Shown: one piece after another, positions 4,310-41,901 of the stretch
Layout: every line of letters starts with the position of its first letter
Numbering within the stretch: position 1 is the first letter of the stretch
Assembly (NCBI GenBank): GCA_021776335.1
Contig: JAJFGB010000009.1
Span: 434,001 to 498,000, forward strand
Length of the DNA: 64,000 bases
Reading direction: 5' to 3'
From: Hyphococcus sp.
Lineage (GTDB): Bacteria > Pseudomonadota > Alphaproteobacteria > Caulobacterales > Parvularculaceae
Program-made: the position numbers and the translations under genes
The notes under the pieces: generated by a model
The model's database searches: none
What the model saw: the letters and a program-made list of their open reading frames with translations, nothing else
Told to the model about the DNA's origin: nothing

Positions 4310-4474
4310 ATGAGTATCATCTTAATAGCGGCAAAGGCGATGAGCCTGATCATTGTCACCATTGCAGCCTTTCTGGCGCTCGCCGGGGCGCTGGGCGCGG
4401 ATCTTGCCGCAGGGGCAACCATCACAGAATGCACGGCGTCAGTACCCAGCACGTGTCTTCTCATGATTATGTAG
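4310..4474 (+). CDS. 54-aa putative small membrane protein
   Basis: MSIILIAAKAMSLIIVTIAAFLALAGALGADLAAGATITECTASVPSTCLLMIM*; GGAGGAGAG RBS directly upstream; below the ORF-track cutoff. Confidence 0.5.
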   Translation: MSIILIAAKAMSLIIVTIAAFLALAGALGADLAAGATITECTASVPSTCLLMIM

Positions 4475-4566
4475 CTGTCACAGGCTGCTTGCTTGACGCG
4501 TCCCCGCTGACTAAACTCACCTCTTCAGTACGAGCCGCAACGACGGCTCCAGCGAGGACGCGCATT

Positions 4567-5673
4567 GTGACTGAAGACAAGGCAGGCGGGGACGCCCGCC
4601 CGGCGGCGAAGCAACGGGCAACGCAATCGCGACAGCGATTTCGCATAGAGCGATACGCTGCAATTGATCTCGGTACGAATAACTGTCGCCTACTTGTCGC
4701 CGCCCCAAGTGGGCGAAGCTACCGCATAGTTGACGCGTTTTCACGGATCGTTCGATTAGGTGAAGGGCTTTTGAAATCTGGCGCCCTGTCGGAGCCGGCC
4801 ATGACCCGCGCAGTGGGTGCTCTCAAAGTATGCGCTGAAAAAATCGCAAGGCGCAATGTAACGCATCTGCGTTGCATCGCGACACAAGCCTGCCGCAGCG
4901 CTGCCAACGGGCCGGAATTTATCGAGAAAGTGCGCACCCAAACCGGCCTTGAGTTCGAGATTATTACGCCGGAAGAAGAGGCGCGCCTCGCGGTGCGCGG
5001 CTGCGCGGATTTGCTCGATCAAAACGCTGCGGCCGGCCTTGTTTTTGATATCGGCGGCGGCTCGACCGAGCTTTCATGGGTGCGGCCCGGTGACAGTGCG
5101 GCGACAGCGGAGATCGCCGCCTGGAAATCCATGCCGTTTGGCGTGGTGATGTTGTCTGAAAGATGGGGTGGGCGTGATATCAATGCTGAGCGCTACGCAA
5201 AAATGGTTGAAAGCGTTCGCGCAGAGATCGTCGCGCTGGGCGATCCCGCGAATTTGAAAGATGCGTTTAGAAATGGCGATGCACACTTCCTCGGCACTTC
5301 CGGCACGATCACCTCAATAGCCGGCGTCCATCTCGAGTTGCGGCGATACAAAAGAGACCGGGTTGACGGGATGTGGCTTGAACTTGATCAGGTTCAAAGC
5401 GTGTCGGAAAAACTATGCAAGATGAGTTTCAGTGAGCGCGCCAATGAACCATGCATCGGCGAGGAACGCGCCGATCTTGTCGTTTGCGGATGCGCCATCC
5501 TCGAAGCGTTGTTGATGGAATGGCCCGTTGCACGCGTGCGCGTTGCCGATCGCGGATTGCGCGAGGGAATTTTGGCAGACCTTGCCCGGCAGGCGCACCG
5601 TCAACGCCGCCGCAATCGGCGGCGTGGGCAGCGGAAGAAGAAAAAGGCGGCTGGCGACGAGTTTGAAGTTTGA
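4567..5673 (+). CDS. Ppx/GppA family phosphatase
   Basis: YAAIDLGTNNCRLLVA, FDIGGGSTELSW, LGTSGTITSIAGVHLELRRY; GTG at 4567 preferred over the longer ORF start at 4243, whose first part overlaps the 54-aa ORF. Confidence 0.9.
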   Translation: MTEDKAGGDARPAAKQRATQSRQRFRIERYAAIDLGTNNCRLLVAAPSGRSYRIVDAFSRIVRLGEGLLKSGALSEPAMTRAVGALKVCAEKIARRNVTHLRCIATQACRSAANGPEFIEKVRTQTGLEFEIITPEEEARLAVRGCADLLDQNAAAGLVFDIGGGSTELSWVRPGDSAATAEIAAWKSMPFGVVMLSERWGGRDINAERYAKMVESVRAEIVALGDPANLKDAFRNGDAHFLGTSGTITSIAGVHLELRRYKRDRVDGMWLELDQVQSVSEKLCKMSFSERANEPCIGEERADLVVCGCAILEALLMEWPVARVRVADRGLREGILADLARQAHRQRRRNRRRGQRKKKKAAGDEFEV

Positions 5674-5821
5674 AGGTAAAAGCGGGCGCGGCTCAAGACC
5701 TTAAACCTCGTCCATTTTAAGTAGAATCCGCTCCAAGATGAGCTGCGCCGTCTTTCAATAAATATAAATATATTACCCTCACTTTATTAGGCTTGGATTT
5801 TTACGCAGCCGGAAGAAACAA

Positions 5822-6322
5822 ATGATTGCATTCGCGGAACTACGAAATGCTGCTTGGGTACTTTTTTTGTGCTTGGCGCTCTCGGCTCCTGCCGCCCTTG
5901 CCCAGGATCCCTTTGAGCAAGGCGAAGCGGCGCTAAAGGCCGGTGACCGCAAACAGGCCATGCAGTTGTTCGAGCAGGCTGCCCTGGCTGGCAATGCGGA
6001 GGCGCAGAACCGGTATGGCAACATGGTCCAAAACGCGGGCGGGGCCAAGGTGGCGTCGCAATGGTTCGAGAAAGCGGCGCAGCAAAATCATAGCCGCGCG
6101 CAAATCAACTTGGGCGTCAATTATCAAAACGGCTGGGGTGTGAAAAAGGATAAGGCCGAAGCCTATGTTTGGTTGAGCTTGGCAGTCGAAAACGGCGACG
6201 AACTCGCCAAAGGCTTCCTCGACGCATTGATGAAGAAGATGAACAAAAAACAGATCGCGGATGGCGACCATCGCCTCGCGGAGCGGCGGGCGGCGCTTGC
6301 ATCCCCGGCGCCGTCACACTGA
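5822..6322 (+). CDS. secreted Sel1/TPR repeat protein
   Basis: Signal peptide followed by A...GNAEAQNRYGNM...ARAQINLGVNYQNGWGVKKDKAEAYVWLSLA, Sel1-type repeats. Confidence 0.85.
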   Translation: MIAFAELRNAAWVLFLCLALSAPAALAQDPFEQGEAALKAGDRKQAMQLFEQAALAGNAEAQNRYGNMVQNAGGAKVASQWFEKAAQQNHSRAQINLGVNYQNGWGVKKDKAEAYVWLSLAVENGDELAKGFLDALMKKMNKKQIADGDHRLAERRAALASPAPSH

Positions 6323-6440
6323 ACCGCGGCCAAGGTGCGGCCGGATGACGTCGCCGGTGATCGGGCCTCAGATGTTCGCCCAGGGCAAAAAAAAGCGGTC
6401 CGACTGTTCCGGGCGGAGTTCAATTGAATTGACGCAATAA

Positions 6441-6600
6441 CGTCGGCCTCGTGCATTGTATGTGACGAATGGCGCCGACTTTCGCGTACTTGTGGTTTTG
6501 TGGGGTGAGTATGATGTCATACTGCGTTTTATTGTGGTTGCACATTGCGTTGAACCGCATTGGTGGAAATGTGACTAAATTCCATGGGTTGCGTCACATC
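6441..6600. repeat. diverged direct repeat, copy A
   Basis: Shares blocks TGCATTG(T/C)ATGT, GGCGC(C/A)GACTTTCGC, TTTATTGTGGTT, GACTAAATT(C/T)CATGGG in the same order with 6853-7005. Confidence 0.75.
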
Positions 6601-6852
6601 GGGCCATACGGCTTATCCGCAAGTCTACTTAGTAGAGATGTAGAATTGGTCGCCGCGATATTTCCCTGTGGAAACAATTACAAAAAACGATATCATAAAA
6701 GACTAGGTTTTTGTTGACTAACATCATGCTTTCATCCAACCTTTCAAGAAATCATCATCTGAGTAAAGACTGAATGGACTTGATATGTGCAGATGATTGG
6801 GTGGGAGTATGCTTGACTGTTTTGGGTGGCGTTCATTTTAATTAATGTAGTA

Positions 6853-7005
6853 CGGCCGCATGCATTGCATGTCGCCTACGGCGCAGACTTTCGCCTGTTC
6901 ACGGCTTTGCGAGACAAGGTGTCGATGCCATGTCGAGTTTTTATTGTGGTTATGCGTTGTGCTGAATTGCATTGGAAAAACTGGGACTAAATTTCATGGG
7001 GCGCG
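6853..7005. repeat. diverged direct repeat, copy B
   Basis: See copy A at 6441-6600. Confidence 0.75.
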
Positions 7006-7069
7006 TATTTTAGTAGCGGTTTGACGCAAACGTGCGAGTCGCCGACAGCTTATCAATTAGGAGGGTGTT

Positions 7070-7411
7070 GTGAAGTTCTTTGCTTTTTTGCTAGTTGCTC
7101 TAGCAAGCCTTGTTACATCAAATTCTGCTCATGCGTTCACTGAGTGTAGTTTTACAGTTGAACGTATCTGGCGCCCTTTTAACGTAAAGGAGATATACGT
7201 TTGCTTTGACCCTACTGGCTGCATTTTCTCTACTTACACCGCCCCCCTTAGTGCGGAGGACGCAGAGATACGAAACCATTTTCTTTCGATGGCGATGACC
7301 GCATTTACTGCGGGGAAAAAATTACGTGTTCGGTTTCCTGAGAACGGGGCCACATGTAGTCCATACACTGCCAACCGTAGCGATATTGATGGGGTTTGGC
7401 TGATAGATTAA
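7070..7411 (+). CDS. small secreted hypothetical protein
   Basis: 113 aa, signal peptide MKFFAFLLVALASLVTSNSAHA, GTG start after AGGAGG, several Cys. Confidence 0.65.
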   Translation: MKFFAFLLVALASLVTSNSAHAFTECSFTVERIWRPFNVKEIYVCFDPTGCIFSTYTAPLSAEDAEIRNHFLSMAMTAFTAGKKLRVRFPENGATCSPYTANRSDIDGVWLID

Positions 7412-37341: not shown

Positions 37342-37416
37342 TAGCATCACGTCTCGGCGAATCGCGAAATGATTGTGCAATCAGTGCGTTTCAAATGACG
37401 GTTGGATGCAGGCAAG

Positions 37417-38922
37417 ATGGGTTCGTCAAAAAAACTGGCAATAAGTATGCCGTCAGAAAATTACAAAGCTGTTGTCGATATCGGCTCGAACTCGGTTCGT
37501 CTCGTTATCTATAACGGGCCTGGTCGCGCGCCGATTTCAATTTGCAACGAAAAAGTGTTGTGCGGGCTTGGACGTGACATGACCGGGGATGGTCGTCTCA
37601 ATCCTGACGCGGCCGCTGACGCCATCGCTACGTTGACCCGGTTTCGTCGCATCCTTGATGAATATGGACGGCCGCCGGTTCACGCGATTGCGACAGCCGC
37701 CGTGCGCGAGGCCAAAGACGGAAAAAAGTTTGTCACCGCTATTTCCAGCTTGGGATTTGACGTCAACATTATCTCCGGAGCTGAAGAGGCAAAACTTGCA
37801 GCCCTTGGCGTCGTCTCATTTGAGCCAGGCGCAACAGGGCTTGTCGGCGACATGGGTGGTGGAAGCCTGGAGTTGGTGGCGCTGGATATGGGTGAGATCG
37901 GGCAAACCACCAGTTTGCCGATTGGTCCATTCAATGTGATGCGCGCGGCGCGAGAGGACATAACCGCGGCAAAAAAGATGATTGAAAAGGAACTCGATAG
38001 CGCGAAATTTTTGACCAATGATGCGTATGACAAGCTTTACGCTGTTGGCGGCGCATGGCGTGCAATTGCACGCATACATATGCGCTTGCGAAGCTATCCG
38101 CTGTCGGTGTTGCATCACTATGAAATGACAACCCAACAGGCCATAGAGATTTGCGATCTTGTTTCGCGTCAAAGTCGTCGTTCACTGGAAGATATACCTG
38201 GCATCCCGCGCCGCCGGATCGATACGTTGCCCTTTGCTTCGTTGGTGATGCGGTCGGTGCTTAAGCGGGCTGCAGCGAAGAAAGTTGTCGTTTCTTCGGG
38301 CGGTGTGCGCGAGGGGCTTTTGTACCAGGACCTTGCTAAGCGTGAGCGCAAACAGGACCCGCTGATCGCTGCATGTCGATTTTTTGCTGAGAGACTGGCG
38401 CCGGCGCCTGATTATGGTGAGGCCGTGGCGGCGGTGATCGCGCCGCTTTTTGCTGATGACGACCCGGCTGCAAAGCGGATGCGTGAAGCAACCTCCATCC
38501 TGATCGACATTGGCGCATATTTTCATCCGGACCGGCGCGCGCATCAGGCGTTCGATGCTGCGCTGAGCGCTCCTTTTGTCGGTGTCAGTCATGAAGAGCG
38601 CGTCGCTGCGGCGCTCGCGCTTTTTCGGCGGCATCAGGGGCGAACCGCCGCGCCGCCTGATGAGCAGGCGATGGCGCTTTTGTCGTGGGACGCCCAGCAA
38701 AAGGCAATGCGTCTCGGATTGGCTTTGCGATTTGTTGCGGCGCTGGCGCCAAAATTAAGTGCGCCGTTGCAGCACTGCCGGCTTGAGCTGGAGGAATCGG
38801 GGCGACTGATATTCCGGGCGCCTGCGGATCGCAAAGTGCTCATGGGAGAGACCCCGCGCAAGCGTTTCGCCTCGCTCGCTGCTGCTTTTGAGGCGGACCC
38901 TGTAGAGATTTACGAGGACTAG
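37417..38922 (+). CDS. ppx: exopolyphosphatase (Ppx/GppA family)
   Basis: KAVVDIGSNSVRLVIYNG; GDMGGGSLELVALD; YAVGGAWRAIARIHM; directly downstream of ppk. Confidence 0.93.
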   Translation: MGSSKKLAISMPSENYKAVVDIGSNSVRLVIYNGPGRAPISICNEKVLCGLGRDMTGDGRLNPDAAADAIATLTRFRRILDEYGRPPVHAIATAAVREAKDGKKFVTAISSLGFDVNIISGAEEAKLAALGVVSFEPGATGLVGDMGGGSLELVALDMGEIGQTTSLPIGPFNVMRAAREDITAAKKMIEKELDSAKFLTNDAYDKLYAVGGAWRAIARIHMRLRSYPLSVLHHYEMTTQQAIEICDLVSRQSRRSLEDIPGIPRRRIDTLPFASLVMRSVLKRAAAKKVVVSSGGVREGLLYQDLAKRERKQDPLIAACRFFAERLAPAPDYGEAVAAVIAPLFADDDPAAKRMREATSILIDIGAYFHPDRRAHQAFDAALSAPFVGVSHEERVAAALALFRRHQGRTAAPPDEQAMALLSWDAQQKAMRLGLALRFVAALAPKLSAPLQHCRLELEESGRLIFRAPADRKVLMGETPRKRFASLAAAFEADPVEIYED

Positions 38923-39143: not shown

Positions 39144-40745
39144 ATGGCGAAACTTGAGTTAGCCAATCTGGGGATTGAAAAGCTTTGGCCTCCAGCCAAA
39201 GAGGCTGACGTGGACATCGGGCCCGTCTGGAGGCGATGGCTGGTTGCCCATGAGCTTTCAGCATATTTCCGCGCGAATATGAGCCTATTGGAGTATTTGC
39301 GTTTGCAATACACCTACCCGGCCTTCAGCATTATGATTATTGCCAGCGCCGCGCTGCTCATGGCGATTTTAGGTACTTCTGATTTATTCGCAGCCTTTGC
39401 GGAACATTTTGACATTGATGCAATAAAACGCACCGATGGCGCCCTTACTCAGTCTCTTTCTATAGCCAGTATATTCTTTGTAGTGGTTCTTTTGTTGTGG
39501 TGGGGGCGTCGAAACAAGGATTTATGTCTACGCGGAGTTTCGACACCGAAATATGTTTTTGACATTCAGTATTCCGGACTAATTTCAGCCAAGGCGGAAG
39601 AAATTCTGAGGCGCCGCCTTGCTTCCGGCGAGCTTGATGCGATTGTGCGTTTGAGGGCGGGGGGCAGCCACCCCTATCTCGTGATTAGGCGTCTTGCTCC
39701 GGTGCCAATGTTGTTTCCGGTCAAGCCAGATAATTTTAACCGCACGTTTTCCTCAGAGGAAGCCGGCAAGAAAAACACGAAACACAATTTGGAGAAGCGG
39801 CATCTCGATGCCGTTGCCGGCGGTATACTGAGCATGCTTGGCGCCGCGCCGGGTGCGCGTTTTGTTGACGATCGACGGGACGATAGGATTGTTCTGAATA
39901 AACACACCAGGAAAGACGTTCAGGAGCTTCCCGATACGCAGCAAGCAGACCTTTTCCTCCGGTTCCATCAGAGCACTGTTGAGCGAACGCTGCCGGATGC
40001 AAACAACCAACGTGGTCGGACATGTCGCTATGTCACATATACTTGCATCAGTAATTTGCGGCGTACAGCTATCCATGTTTTGTCTGTTCTGGATATTGTG
40101 AACTGCTTGGAAAATCGCGATGGCGAATATACCGAAGACGAACACGCTGCCGTATTCCGTCACTCAAATGAGGTAAACAAAGACAATATCGTCAACGTAC
40201 TTTCAGAAAGTTACTATATTGGTATGACGCCGCGTGCCGAGAGATTTATGAAGGACACGGAAGGCGCCGCCGGGCCAATATTAAGAAAATTCGGGAGTGA
40301 CGACTATGTCATGTCGTTTGATGCGGCTCGGGTATGGCGCAATGAAGGTGGTACAGACCGCCATTCCAAAGCAATAATTGCACTGAGGAATGCTATTTAT
40401 CTGGTCTCGCGAAAGAAGGCGGTTGCCGTAAAACTTGCTTCGCGAGATATACTGGTCATTGATAATTTGCGCGCAATGGTGGCTCGCCGTGAAGATGACC
40501 CGGGCGCGTCTGTTCGAGATGTTTGGGTCACACTTCTCGGCGTTTTGCCTTTTGTGCCGGATATGACTGGTTGGTGGCTCAGAATGGTCTATGGATATCC
40601 GGTCGATTCTTACGGTGGGGATGACGAGGATCAAAAAAGCCATTCCGCCCTGCTGGCCCACGCAGAGGTCTCGGCGGCAAAAGCGAACGAACCAAAGCCT
40701 GCCGAAGATAAAAATATCAAAACTGATCGTTCCCGCCGCGCGTAG
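39144..40745 (+). CDS. membrane-anchored protein with possible degenerate TauD/clavaminate-synthase-like oxygenase fold
   Basis: 533 aa, two N-terminal TM segments (FSIMIIASAALLMAIL; IASIFFVVVLLLWW); C-terminal part carries PYLVIRRLAPVP, LFLRFHQST...CRYVTYTCISN, RDILVIDNLRAMVARREDDPG...WWLRMVYGY. Confidence 0.5.
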   Translation: MAKLELANLGIEKLWPPAKEADVDIGPVWRRWLVAHELSAYFRANMSLLEYLRLQYTYPAFSIMIIASAALLMAILGTSDLFAAFAEHFDIDAIKRTDGALTQSLSIASIFFVVVLLLWWGRRNKDLCLRGVSTPKYVFDIQYSGLISAKAEEILRRRLASGELDAIVRLRAGGSHPYLVIRRLAPVPMLFPVKPDNFNRTFSSEEAGKKNTKHNLEKRHLDAVAGGILSMLGAAPGARFVDDRRDDRIVLNKHTRKDVQELPDTQQADLFLRFHQSTVERTLPDANNQRGRTCRYVTYTCISNLRRTAIHVLSVLDIVNCLENRDGEYTEDEHAAVFRHSNEVNKDNIVNVLSESYYIGMTPRAERFMKDTEGAAGPILRKFGSDDYVMSFDAARVWRNEGGTDRHSKAIIALRNAIYLVSRKKAVAVKLASRDILVIDNLRAMVARREDDPGASVRDVWVTLLGVLPFVPDMTGWWLRMVYGYPVDSYGGDDEDQKSHSALLAHAEVSAAKANEPKPAEDKNIKTDRSRRA

Positions 40746-40755
40746 TCCGAACAAT

Positions 40756-41901
40756 TCAGGTCTCAATCAACTCGACAGCTCCATTTTTGAGTTTGAGCGC
40801 AAGTTCGCCGCGTTTGAGTTTTAACGCCGCTTCGCCGAAGACTTCACGCCGCCATCCAGTGAGCGCTTGGACATCGGCCTCATCGCTGAGGGCGATTTCC
40901 TCAAGGTCTGCAGCAGAAGCGATTAATTTTGGCGCAACATCAAAGGCTTCGCATTGACGCTTCAATAAAACCTTCAAGAGCTCGATTACCTCACCAGGCG
41001 GTTTTTGTCGCTCGGCCCGGCTGATTTTTGGCAGATCGCTAGGCGCGGCAGCAGCACCTTCCTTGATTGCATCAAGAATAGCGCCGCCAGCCGAGGAACG
41101 CTCGAAGCCAGAGGAAAGGCTGCGCGCCCGCGAAAGCTCCTTGACGCTTTTTGGCTGAAGGCGCGCCAGTTCGAATATTGCTTCATCCTTTAACACGCGG
41201 CTGCGCGGAACGTCTCTTGTCTGGGCCTCTTTTTCGCGCCACTCGGCGAGCTTGACGACCGCGCCCAGCTCTTTTGGCCGCACGCCCTTCAATTTGAGTC
41301 TTTTCCAGGCATTTACTGGTTTGACGTGGTAGAGGCCGGAGTCATAAAGCGCTTCCATTTCCGCTTCGACCCAATGGCCGCGGCTCTGGCTCGTTAGCTT
41401 TTCCTGCATCAACGGATAAGCGTCCCGCAAATGGGTGACGTCTGAAAGCGCGTAGCTCAATTGCGCATCGGTCAATGGGCGGCGCGCCCAGTCGGTAAAT
41501 CGTGAGCCTTTGTCGATCGATGCGCCGAGCAGTCCGCGCATCAGGGGTTCATACCCAATCTGGTCACCAAAGCCACAGGCCATGGCGGCAATCTGACTAT
41601 CAAATAAGGGCGCTGGAACTTCATTGGCCAACTGGTAGAAAATCTCGAGATCCTGCCGCGCCGCATGGAAGACCTTGACCACATTACGGTCCGTCATAAC
41701 GTCGAGAAATGGCGCCAGATCGAGACCCTTCGCAAGAGGGTCAATAATTGCTTCTACGCCGTCGGCTGCCGCCTGGATAAGGCACAGGATGGGCCAATAG
41801 GTCTTCTCCCGCATAAATTCGGTATCAACAGCGGCAAAGGGCCGTTTCGCCAAATCGGCGGAAAATGCCCTGAGTTCTTCGGTGGTTGTAATTACACGCA
41901 T
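40756..41901 (-). CDS. rnd: ribonuclease D
   Basis: FAAVDTEFMREKTYWPILCLIQ; KVFHAARQDLEIFYQ; QLSYALSDVTHL; HRDC-type C-terminus. Confidence 0.95.
   Translation of the reverse strand: MRVITTTEELRAFSADLAKRPFAAVDTEFMREKTYWPILCLIQAAADGVEAIIDPLAKGLDLAPFLDVMTDRNVVKVFHAARQDLEIFYQLANEVPAPLFDSQIAAMACGFGDQIGYEPLMRGLLGASIDKGSRFTDWARRPLTDAQLSYALSDVTHLRDAYPLMQEKLTSQSRGHWVEAEMEALYDSGLYHVKPVNAWKRLKLKGVRPKELGAVVKLAEWREKEAQTRDVPRSRVLKDEAIFELARLQPKSVKELSRARSLSSGFERSSAGGAILDAIKEGAAAAPSDLPKISRAERQKPPGEVIELLKVLLKRQCEAFDVAPKLIASAADLEEIALSDEADVQALTGWRREVFGEAALKLKRGELALKLKNGAVELIET

Follow-up and report, generated by a model that had tools for sequence, protein, structure and literature searches.

What kind of protein is encoded by the gene standing between ppx and rnd in this Hyphococcus sp. 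contig, and could it still work as the oxygenase that it resembles? In the window, which is the whole stretch of 64,000 nucleotides that we analyzed, positions 39144 to 40745 of the plus strand hold an ORF of 533 amino acids that starts with ATG and is uninterrupted by stops. A preliminary description of this DNA had proposed a membrane-anchored protein with an apparently degenerate 2-oxoglutarate (2OG)-oxygenase domain, inserted between the two genes. The ORF is flanked by ppx (37402 to 38922, plus strand) on one side and rnd (40756 to 41901, minus strand) on the other, and it has a lower GC3 (0.51) than its neighbors ppx, rnd and aspS (0.58 to 0.61). The proposed insertion was borne out by comparison with empty sites: in the eight genus members with a ppx detectable beside rnd, the two genes adjoin and the ORF is absent, including the nearest one, G017, whose rnd is 89% identical. 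Inspection of the ppx-rnd junction by eye revealed neither an evident target duplication nor a mobile-element signature, the region upstream of the ORF showed no sigma-70-like site, and terminator-like matches fall mostly within the ORF itself.

Single-sequence searches recovered two relatives within the genus and an alignment-driven scan two more; a scan of genome contigs with the single window protein as query gave no match. With profile searches the family grew to 16 proteins, spread over 15 of 62 Parvularculaceae genomes and five of nine genera, a count that leaves out two more marginal fragments (E values of 7-9e-4). Among the relatives sampled, these proteins are found in Parvularculaceae only: the matches in an even sample of the order were confined to that taxon, and samples of the class and phylum yielded no members except in the window genome. 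Within Parvularculaceae the distribution is patchy. The members were sorted into group A (the window protein and L004 to L007), group B (L032 to L034) and group C (L035 to L042). In the tree they form one clade against canonical clavaminate synthase (CAS)-like proteins with a support of 98/99; groups A and C are each well supported, while group B is not resolved as a single clade. Genome G454 carries group-A (L006/L030) and group-B (L033) members at separate loci, and thus the two groups coexist as paralogues. L004 and L005 of group A share a C-terminal motif, F-x-FG-x-DP-x-x-WP, that is absent from the window protein.

All the landmarks from which a CAS-like/TauD fold had been proposed are present in the window protein, namely PYLVIRRLAPVP (residues 177 to 188), LSMLGAAPG (about 229 to 237), LFLRFHQS (270 to 277), CRYVTYTCISN (294 to 304), GPILRKFGSDDYVMSFDAARVW (377 to 398), RDILVIDNLRAMVARREDDPG (434 to 454) and WWLRMVYGY (477 to 485), and they are not chance resemblances, because they are conserved in 15 homologues. 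Among them, RDILVIDNLR (residues 434 to 443; 40443 to 40472, plus strand) corresponds by profile match and alignment to the GDxLxxDNxR strand of CAS enzymes. When PDB chains were searched with the family profile (hmmsearch), the leading matches were the L-arginine beta-hydroxylase OrfP (E = 3.7e-5) and clavaminate synthase 1 (CS1; E = 0.003), with NapI and VioC also matched; a single-sequence PDB match to Nup57/Nup49 (E = 0.03) disappeared once the profile was used. The NCBIfam clavaminate-synthase model matches 12 of the 16 members (best E = 1.1e-6) and the VioC model 10 of them. Profile-profile comparison by hhalign of the family with four canonical proteins (L122 to L125, TauD/CAS-type proteins from other Pseudomonadota) gave a probability of 98.2 and an E value of 3.7e-14 over 203 columns. 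In a Pfam check of three of these four, two scored above the TauD cutoff and L124 just below it. L125 (1495 to 2589, minus strand) is a CAS-like protein that retains HTD, the distal His and the 2OG Arg, and the insertion following its HxD motif resembles that of the family, so it is possibly a near outgroup.

The AlphaFold2 models agree with the profiles. The window protein was modeled with a pTM of 0.66 and core blocks mostly at 80 to 93 pLDDT, and a distant group-C member with a pTM of 0.73. Foldseek searches with the models returned AsnO (E = 2.0e-11), OrfP, NapI, VioC, KDO1, CmnC and CS1, and in the fold check that had been set beforehand, the best 50 PDB matches listed for each of the two models were CAS-like oxygenases only. 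Since the models were built on 16 sequences, with target-normalized TM-scores of about 0.5 to 0.65 and large rmsd, their active-site geometry is unreliable. An ordinary membrane protein with a superficial similarity to CAS enzymes might be suspected from the window protein itself, which passes no curated Pfam or NCBIfam cutoff (PF02668 TauD and the CS1, VioC and GntD models), scores 14.5 bits against a cutoff of 450 with the CS1 model, and has no match to PF02668, to which the other members match weakly and 1 of the 16 with an E value of 0.00048. This explanation is effectively refuted by independent profile, profile-profile and fold evidence, which converges on the same CAS branch. Within the limits of prediction, this assigns residues of about 145 to 490 (39576 to 40613, plus strand) to the Fe(II)/2-oxoglutarate oxygenases of the CAS branch, closest to VioC, OrfP, AsnO and CS1.

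In VioC, the iron is held by a 2-His-1-carboxylate triad of His168, Glu170 and His316, and a conserved Arg forms a salt bridge with the 2OG carboxylate (PMC10884159). The hhalign register, with which MAFFT agrees, places H275 of the window protein at the first His and V446 at the distal His. We tabulated the corresponding columns for 14 family members and the four canonical proteins, omitting two near-duplicates that were seen in the family alignment. Instead of HxD/E, groups A and B carry HQS (residues 275 to 277; 39966 to 39974, plus strand) and group C carries RT(A/S/G). All 8 members of groups A and B thus keep the first His, which is replaced by Arg in group C. The acidic ligand is Asp or Glu in all four canonical proteins; groups A and B have Ser there and group C has Ala, Ser or Gly, so that it is lost in 16 of 16. 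At the distal position (Val446; 40479 to 40481, plus strand), all 16 members have Val, Ile, Leu or Met, and the four canonical proteins have His; the tabulated members of groups A and B show Val or Ile, and those of group C show Val, Ile or Met. In the table neither the acidic ligand nor the distal His occurs in any of the 14 rows, and the two omitted members show the same losses. The alterations read earlier from one sequence, HQS in place of H-x-E/D and Val in place of the distal His, therefore hold against the canonical proteins, and mapping conservation at the HQS and VAR positions extends them to the whole family, whose members share both the motifs and the ligand losses. Because the losses are common to all groups, they predate the family radiation.

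In active enzymes of the VioC/CS1 type, a 2OG-binding Arg stands about 14 residues past the distal His, and the window protein lacks it. Of the 8 members of groups A and B, 7 have Arg at this position; the window protein (Trp477; 40572 to 40574, plus strand) and group C have Trp. The tree members between the window protein and group C keep the Arg, so Trp probably arose independently in the two. Glu280 (39981 to 39983, plus strand) is Glu or Asp in 8 of 8 members of groups A and B and His in group C, and it is the sole obvious candidate for a relocated ligand. One might then picture groups A and B as metal enzymes with an unusual ligation, in which H275 and Glu/Asp280 (H-x4-E/D), perhaps with another residue, hold a metal for a chemistry unlike that of the classical 2OG oxygenases. 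Their complete conservation in these groups, the His at position 280 in group C and the largely retained 2OG Arg would fit such an enzyme, but no more than two protein ligands are left around the old site, a hydrophobic residue occupies the distal His position in every member, the first His has become Arg in group C, and the 2OG Arg has become Trp in the window protein. We regard it as doubtful.

The vacated site has acquired conserved residues of its own. Arg273 (39960 to 39962, plus strand), two residues before the first His position, is invariant in the family and absent from the aligned canonical proteins, and Glu450 (40491 to 40493, plus strand), four residues past the lost distal His, is present in 15 of 16 members and likewise absent from canonical proteins. 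The register of the strands would allow R273 and E450 to pair with each other over the emptied site. In L042 of group C (5223 to 7085, plus strand), a short in-frame deletion just past the lost distal His position removes the Glu450 equivalent. Family-specific invariant charges flanking a former metal site are more than a passive scaffold would be expected to keep, and they raise the thought of a metal-independent enzyme on the CAS fold with Arg273 and Glu450 in its catalytic set. This seems improbable, as both residues lie on strands where a plain salt bridge would suffice structurally, and no metal-free enzyme with the CAS fold is known to us.

Two TM helices had been read in the window protein, and two hydrophobic stretches above the Kyte-Doolittle threshold indeed predict them at residues 60 to 78 (39321 to 39377, plus strand; 19-residue mean of 2.23, within a long modeled helix of residues 27 to 77) and residues 100 to 118 (39441 to 39497, plus strand; mean of 2.27, in a modeled helix of residues 100 to 132). 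A Pfam match to DUF5671 (E = 0.0013, residues 63 to 124) concerns the TM part only and lies under the cutoff. One or two TM segments are predicted in the other full-length proteins of groups A and C, but group B has none; the membrane anchor thus stands for the window protein and is not universal in the family. Basic residues lie outside both TM segments, including GRRNKDLCLR after the second, and for this reason the C-terminal domain of the window protein is most likely cytoplasmic, with both termini predicted to lie inside.

The gene contexts differ among groups. Four group-A relatives in two genera lie between groEL and a gene for an OmpA-family lipoprotein; the contig of L007, whose 5' end is truncated by the contig edge, is cut on the groEL side, and only the OmpA side is visible there. 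The groEL/OmpA junction of the window genome (L106) is empty and ppx adjoins rnd in the other genus members, from which we conclude that the window copy came to the ppx-rnd site on a separate occasion. The neighbors in groups B and C, named by eye, are unrelated and include Dps, a PrkA-like kinase, an amidohydrolase, a CtpA-like protease, a P450 and etfAB; L033 of group B (4311 to 5696, minus strand) is divergently transcribed from the putative cytochrome P450 gene. The suggested comparison of neighborhoods in other genomes mapped these contexts, with groEL/OmpA as that of group A, but disclosed no shared partner gene: inspection of groups A, B and C for a functional partner gave neither a common theme nor a conserved operon partner. 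Neither viral contigs nor plasmids (tblastn) contained relatives, and thus nothing points to carriage by phages or plasmids. A phage or defense role is unsupported, because PHROGs and PADLOC returned weak noise only.

The patchy occurrence (15 of 62 genomes), the shifting gene contexts and the lower GC3 of the ORF would suit a passenger gene or a gene in decay, derived from an oxygenase that came by lateral transfer and is losing its function. Decay is difficult to reconcile with intact ORFs that carry the same motifs in five genera at about 30% identity, or with two group-C orthologues, 91% identical, that show a dN of 0.05 and a dS of 1.10. Group C is under strong purifying selection, which is well measured in that group only, as most other pairs are saturated in dS (2.9 for the tested group-A pair). 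The new invariant residues around the empty site and a ligand loss older than the family radiation speak against decay as well, and we consider this explanation largely refuted. A protein that remains constrained after its catalytic residues have been lost across the clade answers to the definition of a pseudoenzyme, and by its residues this one would be inactive.

Because the iron-holding residues are gone family-wide although the protein has been preserved intact, an enzyme has probably been turned to a new use, in binding. We therefore favor, with a probability of roughly 0.6, a membrane-tethered, catalytically dead CAS module that acts by binding, a pseudo-oxygenase and not an oxygenase; the fold, motif and ligand-loss evidence supports the degenerate domain first proposed, neither of the refuting outcomes named for it having occurred, and the whole ORF can be described as a putative group-A membrane-anchored CAS-like pseudo-oxygenase. 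In the proposed mechanism, the N-terminal helical hairpin would tether the CAS-like double-stranded beta-helix domain to the inner membrane, on its cytoplasmic face. The 2-His-1-carboxylate iron centre would no longer be assembled, and as the window copy also lacks the 2OG-binding Arg, no Fe(II)/2OG chemistry would be expected. The emptied site appears to have been rebuilt with the new conserved residues R273, H275-Q-S277 and E450, and the old pocket or the domain surface may bind a small ligand or a partner protein, as a sensor or scaffold. Judged from its sequence, the window protein would thus be inactive, cytoplasmically oriented and a binder.

Some observations count against the pseudo-oxygenase reading. 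In groups A and B, H275 is conserved without exception and 7 of 8 members keep the 2OG Arg, which might point to some remaining binding of a ligand or a metal, and there is no shared operon partner pointing to any particular role. A more specific version, in which a VioC/AsnO-type amino-acid hydroxylase has turned into a membrane-bound receptor whose site around R273/E450 recognizes a small molecule such as an amino acid resembling arginine and signals through the hairpin or a partner, is conceivable and, in our estimate, rather unlikely. A role in regulating an active VioC-type paralogue is unlikely, since a TIGR03946 search found no such paralogue in the window genome, which has one ordinary TauD elsewhere (contig C6).

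Compared with the VioC/OrfP/NapI/CmnC branch and with AsnO, KDO1 and CS1, the family has the same domain order and predicted fold, and the GDxLxxDNxR...R and RWLxRxYG-type motifs of that branch. It differs in that every member has lost both the acidic ligand and the distal His, and also in the missing 2OG Arg of the window copy, insertions between strands, and the N-terminal TM hairpin of groups A and C. TauD/TfdA (PF02668) is a distant homologue, and the catalytic triad of active TauD is absent from the family. LpxO is not CAS-like but an active enzyme of another oxygenase subfamily. To our knowledge, pseudo-oxygenases of the 2OG superfamily come mainly from eukaryotic JmjC proteins. Epe1 (His to Tyr) and JARID2 are 2OG-oxygenase folds with altered iron-triad residues that act non-enzymatically (PMC7192584); they resemble the family in the altered triad, but they are JmjC proteins of eukaryotic chromatin and are not membrane-anchored. 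As summarized in a citing paper, LpxO is an inner-membrane lipid A dioxygenase of bacteria (PMC10865791, citing Gibbons 2008) and, on that account, shares with the family the setting of a bacterial oxygenase at this membrane. In the open-access literature searched, as distinct from subscription papers, we met no description of this family or of any bacterial CAS-like pseudo-oxygenase.

What is new here is a homologue of a well-known enzyme superfamily that fails its defining catalytic features, with a membrane anchor added in part of the family. Genes of this kind should not be annotated as dioxygenases. A metal-less, partly membrane-anchored bacterial CAS-like clade would add a new case to the pseudo-oxygenases. 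With three subgroups at different stages, in which the first His, the 2OG Arg and the TM region are variously kept or lost, it becomes testable which remnants matter, and the family would be a natural experiment in how the site of a metalloenzyme is rebuilt once the metal has been lost.
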